DNA of 48,526 bases from Bacteroidota bacterium (GTDB lineage Bacteria > Bacteroidota > Bacteroidia > M30B66): assembly GCA_027483445.1 (NCBI GenBank), contig JAIXUS010000004.1, forward strand, positions 1 to 48,526. Direction: 5' to 3'. Positions 48,408 through 48,526 of this stretch are shown in pieces. The number at the start of each line of letters is the position of its first letter. Within the stretch, counting starts at the first letter, position 1. The translations under genes and the position numbers were made by a program. Below the pieces are notes generated by a model. It ran no database searches and was not told where the DNA came from. It saw nothing but the letters and a program-made list of their open reading frames with translations.

Positions 48408-48452
48408 TTGAAAATCCGCGTGTCGGCAGTTCGATTCTGCCCCAGGCCACCA
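48408..48452 (+). pseudogene. 3' half of tRNA-Phe (GAA) at the right attachment site
   Basis: The sequence has the anticodon loop TTGAAAA (GAA anticodon), anticodon stem 3' strand TCCGC, variable loop GTGTC, T arm GGCAG-TTCGATT-CTGCC, acceptor 3' strand CCAGGCC, discriminator A and CCA. The acceptor 5' strand and D arm are missing upstream, where the sequence is unrelated. This is the tRNA portion restored or duplicated by site-specific integration. Confidence 0.8.
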
Positions 48453-48526
48453 GATACACCCCACAGTTTCGCAAGAGGCTGTGGGGTTTTCTTTTGTGGG
48501 TTTGGCGTTTGACGCACCCCATTGCC
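48448..48526. repeat. Right copy of 79-bp terminal direct repeat
   Basis: Identical to bases 1-79. It starts within the CCA end of the tRNA-Phe fragment and runs to the last base of the window. Confidence 0.9.
48458..48495 (+). terminator. Rho-independent terminator of tRNA-Phe (right copy)
   Basis: Same 9-bp stem and TTTCTTTT tail as at 11-48, directly after the tRNA-Phe fragment. Confidence 0.8.

Follow-up and report, generated by a model that had tools for sequence, protein, structure and literature searches.

The 79-bp repeat that bounds the window (the whole stretch analysed, 48,526 nucleotides, comprising the entire contig C80) can be attributed with high confidence to assembly, as a footprint of the program that built the contig. 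The reading favoured here, with a probability of about 0.85, is that a multi-k de Bruijn assembler looped C80 at k = 79 and that the partial tRNA-Phe gene at its right end is the scar of a past insertion. The features of the two ends are as follows.

1–79, plus strand: left copy of the terminal overlap, identical to 48448–48526, with a length equal to an assembler k step.
48448–48526, plus strand: right copy of the terminal overlap, identical to 1–79.
48408–48452, plus strand: 3′ half of tRNA-Phe, starting in the anticodon loop and ending with CCA, resembling an attachment-site remnant and matching exactly the 3′ half of complete Burkholderiales-type genes.
48458–48487 (the same as 11–40), plus strand: intrinsic terminator directly after the tRNA end, with a 13-pair stem and a U tract.

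The initial annotation had reported that bases 1–79 equal bases 48448–48526. The identity is exact, and end-to-end comparison of the window showed that the overlap spans exactly 79 bp and no more. No 79-mer or 30-mer occurs twice within the closed circle of 48,447 bp, and the 79-mer has no other copy in the 4.26-Mb bin, a metagenome-like set of 87 contigs.

The origin of the overlap was traced by comparing contig ends within this bin, 127 in all from 75 contigs. Nine joins showed an exact overlap of 119 bp and one an exact overlap of 99 bp, and C80 overlapped with itself by 79 bp; besides the nine joins, five more shared ends of 119 bp were present. The values 79, 99, and 119 are consecutive k steps of MEGAHIT, and equally k-1 of the IDBA-UD steps 80, 100, and 120. 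Since all three lie in one k series, C80 appears to have been circularised at k = 79. MEGAHIT probably sets loops aside at the k step where they close. The published k list of this assembler is 21, 29, 39, 59, 79, 99, 119, and 141, and contig-end overlaps are reported to equal maxK for metaSPAdes and MEGAHIT and maxK-1 for IDBA-UD (PMC10914622). A few end overlaps fall outside the series (106, 55, and 36 bp) and count against this reading; some shared ends of nearly 119 bp also occur. Matches of 400 bp among C23, C32, C44, C61, and C75 were ignored because each of these five contigs matches itself and all the others in both senses, as masked runs of N would.

C80 thus carries a terminal overlap equal to the k-mer length of its presumed assembler, as an assembly-made circular contig does. 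These overlap lengths support the view that a biological 79-bp direct repeat need not exist, and a real repeat of that size should not stop an assembler ending at k = 119, which would span it. The earlier annotation weighed an island (or the excised form of one) equally against a circle made in assembly; for the repeat, the overlap lengths tip this balance towards assembly. Loop closure in itself proves little, because 10–30% of the circular contigs that MEGAHIT and IDBA-UD produced were found not to be complete genomes (PMC5610896).

The tRNA fragment is a separate matter from the repeat. Positions 48410–48452 (48408–48452, or 45 nt, with the preceding TT) agree base for base with the 3′ half of full-length tRNA-Phe genes on three IMG/VR contigs (L167, L170, and L171) and in a Burkholderiales genome (G330, locus L183). 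This 45-nt exact match bears out the earlier description of the right copy as joined to a tRNA-Phe fragment lacking its 5′ half. On the 5′ side of the anticodon loop, the window ceases to match tRNA-Phe and is unrelated to its 5′ half. Neither ARAGORN nor Rfam detected a complete tRNA in the window, and the fragment has no second copy in the 4.26-Mb bin. The left copy of the overlap contains CACCA, the last five nucleotides of the tRNA, followed by a terminator-like stretch. Because it holds only CACCA, the tRNA half lies outside the repeat and is present in a single copy, a correction to the picture of two repeats at a tRNA-Phe 3′ half. The terminator region folds stably (-25.5 kcal/mol for 48450–48505, z -4.15), and native Burkholderiales tRNA-Phe genes often have comparable terminators downstream.

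Judged from its sequence, the tRNA half looks like the remnant of an insertion (attachment) site, the ordinary sign of a past insertion at tRNA-Phe. As in a genomic island, a tRNA 3′ end without its 5′ half lies at the far side (48408–48452, 45 nt exact). No complete tRNA-Phe marks the other junction (attL) within the contig, which may end before attL. The fragment had been taken as a mark of insertion, and this holds for it as an att remnant; the attL with a complete tRNA-Phe and the integrase that would complete the picture are both absent from the contig.

The position of the contig boundary bears on what the loop represents. It lies at most 4 bp from the tRNA 3′ end, a coincidence with a chance of about 2e-4 for an arbitrary cut on the 48,447-bp circle, the landmark having been chosen post hoc. 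This small chance makes a graph branch at that point likely, and the boundary is probably a former branch, meaning that another sequence in the sample contained the same 79-mer. Some true repetition close to the tRNA is therefore conceivable and counts against a purely assembly-based reading. Given the boundary at the tRNA end, the terminator within the 79-mer, and the comparable native terminators, the surroundings of the island may hold a longer repeat, or integrated and circular forms together. Selection of the smallest k-mer of the circle as the loop start was considered as another source of the boundary and rejected, as the 79-mer is neither the lexicographic nor the colexicographic extreme.

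The loop could stand for a chromosomal island whose two ends have in common a repeat longer than the overlap suggests, made up of the tRNA 3′ end and the terminator and measuring 79 bp or more, which was collapsed into a false loop in the k = 79 graph; this possibility has somewhat less than even odds. The coincidence of boundary and tRNA end, the terminators downstream of native Burkholderiales tRNA-Phe genes, and the frequency of false circles (PMC5610896) agree with such a closure, as does genome G013, in which 11.3 kb separate a complete tRNA-Phe from a 3′ half. This arrangement is an ordinary form of insertion site at tRNA-Phe. However, a repeat of just 79 bp would be spanned at the final k of 119, and no flanking contig with the repeat is present in the bin, although the bin, belonging to a different organism, would hardly be expected to contain one.

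Two side observations concern the same tRNA. The G013 locus (L221, G013:C22:77900-89700) encodes a transposase and may be an element that has decayed at this insertion site; this control element, too, has no recognisable integrase. In the first 125 bases of the IMG/VR contig L168 (IMGVR_UViG_3300011183_000066), this tRNA-Phe 3′ half recurs after DNA of unrelated sequence, a further scar of insertion at the gene; the terminator downstream is a different one.

Between its ends C80 is a catabolic mosaic. The 42 annotated ORFs account for 92% of the window, and Pfam assigns them to the breakdown of aromatic compounds and carboxylates, to transporters (five TctC receptors, ABC, and TRAP), and to regulators. 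Pfam and composition divide the contig into three blocks, none assigned to a strand.

334–18236: G+C-rich (~60%) catabolic block with fumarylacetoacetase-like, TctC receptor, amidohydrolase, LysR/IclR, FAD monooxygenase, FAA hydrolase, lyase, and acyl-CoA genes.
18639–36719: middle block (~55% G+C) with genes for an ABC transporter, a Mo-hydroxylase with 2Fe-2S subunit, a LigAB dioxygenase, hydrolases, BKACE, and TctC receptors.
37151–47994: low-G+C block (~45–50%) with genes for LysR, split and whole transketolases, a 3-hydroxyisobutyrate dehydrogenase-like protein, a TRAP transporter, and an aldo/keto reductase.

The G+C content falls from ~61% through 55% to 45% along positions 1–48000, which suggests either a mosaic drawn from several sources or chimerism of the contig. 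At 20691–31669, genes for a three-subunit molybdenum hydroxylase adjoin those for LigAB ring cleavage and for an ABC transporter; together they may form one aromatic pathway. Pfam scans of all larger ORFs found no integrase, excisionase, transposase, relaxase, Rep, Par, or mobilisation gene in the 48 kb. Any movement of C80 would therefore depend on an integrase supplied by other DNA. The own integrase that defines an ICE or IME is lacking, and the PF00589 matches of the bin sit on contigs other than C80.

C80 most likely does not come from the main organism of its bin. The rest of the bin is Bacteroidota, with 150 Por (type IX) secretion tails on many contigs and none on C80, and TctC within the bin occurs only on C80. 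C80 has little in common with the remaining contigs, and its tetranucleotide profile is closest to that of C67, which itself carries a proteobacterial tRNA-Phe. C80 is thus probably a misbinned proteobacterial contig, and there is no reason to look to this bin for its flanks. The bin as a whole (G000) seems to be a mix of a Bacteroidota genome and proteobacterial contigs (C67, C31, C22, and C80), to judge from two kinds of tRNA-Phe, differing composition, and the lack of Por tails listed on C67, C31, and C80.

Flanks of C80 were sought within the bin, and no 25-mer from either end turned up in the sequence covered of 74 further contigs. The two tRNA-Phe genes of the bin were rejected as the insertion site, neither having the same 3′ half; the one on C87 is Bacteroidota-like, and the one on C67 differs at several 3′-half positions. 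The C80 junction was found in no phage, in no plasmid of PLSDB, and nowhere in IMG/VR. Across 399 genomes of the order Burkholderiales neither junction nor island was found, the matches being tRNA-Phe 3′ halves, the best of them with a different terminator. Among 200 genomes searched, no relative of the left-end enzyme exceeds 51% identity; for the right-end enzyme the maximum across GTDB species genomes is about 56%.

A circular replicating plasmid would account for the loop closure of C80 and is very improbable: the Pfam scans of all larger ORFs revealed no replication, partition, or mobilisation gene, no PLSDB plasmid shares the junction, and matches elsewhere are gene-level only, at about 65%.

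The loop might also stand for an island that leaves tRNA-Phe through an integrase acting in trans, or that is amplified head to tail, so that the junction is a true attP or an internal junction; the 79-bp overlap itself would still be the work of the assembler. The order of the junction (right end, tRNA-Phe 3′ half, terminator, left end) fits an attP or a tandem junction, C80 closes without any other 30-bp repeat, and both elements with att sites and no integrase (CIMEs) and tandem accretion have been described (PMC5704250). Yet the 48 kb contain no integrase, excisionase, relaxase, or replication gene, the bin holds no matching complete tRNA-Phe or attL, and circles from MEGAHIT and IDBA-UD are often false (PMC5610896), making this alternative less likely than not. 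Less probable still is its strongest form, in which a 48.4-kb catabolic cassette without mobility genes is excised or tandem-amplified at tRNA-Phe by an integrase in trans and circular junctions outnumber chromosomal ones in the sample. Only if reads demonstrated circulation or amplification without an integrase of its own would the catabolic island be important in its own right.

Under the preferred reading of a looped contig with an insertion scar, a tyrosine recombinase would once have inserted an element into the tRNA-Phe of a Burkholderiales-like host, and the tRNA half would most likely be the far-side scar (attR) or the attP of that element, whose integrase may have been lost or may be encoded elsewhere. 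The assembler, presumably MEGAHIT or equally IDBA-UD at k = 80, would then have closed C80 into a loop at the k = 79 step, joining the right end (tRNA-Phe 3′ half and terminator) to the left end of the 48.4-kb catabolic mosaic. Carried through to the output, this loop would have been written with the same 79-mer at both ends. It may represent a true circle, a tandem array, or a spurious join at a repeat of greater length, the last being slightly favoured because no gene in C80 could keep or make a circle.

Compared with known systems, C80 resembles genomic islands and CIMEs at tRNA genes in having a tRNA-Phe 3′ half at one end together with accessory cargo, but differs from them in that no attL with a complete tRNA is seen and no integrase is present. 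A CIME keeps attL and attR and has lost its integration and transfer genes (PMC5704250); in C80 the mobility genes are absent and one att-like end is present, the second att end not being seen in the contig. For exact terminal repeats in metagenome contigs generally, the assembler k series should be checked before a circle or an island is claimed, and the contig-end overlaps within a single bin suffice for this check. Unlike the other joins of its bin, C80 closed at 79, an earlier step than 119; like the circular-looking contigs of de Bruijn assemblers, which overlap with themselves by k or k-1, it has an exact overlap equal to a k step.
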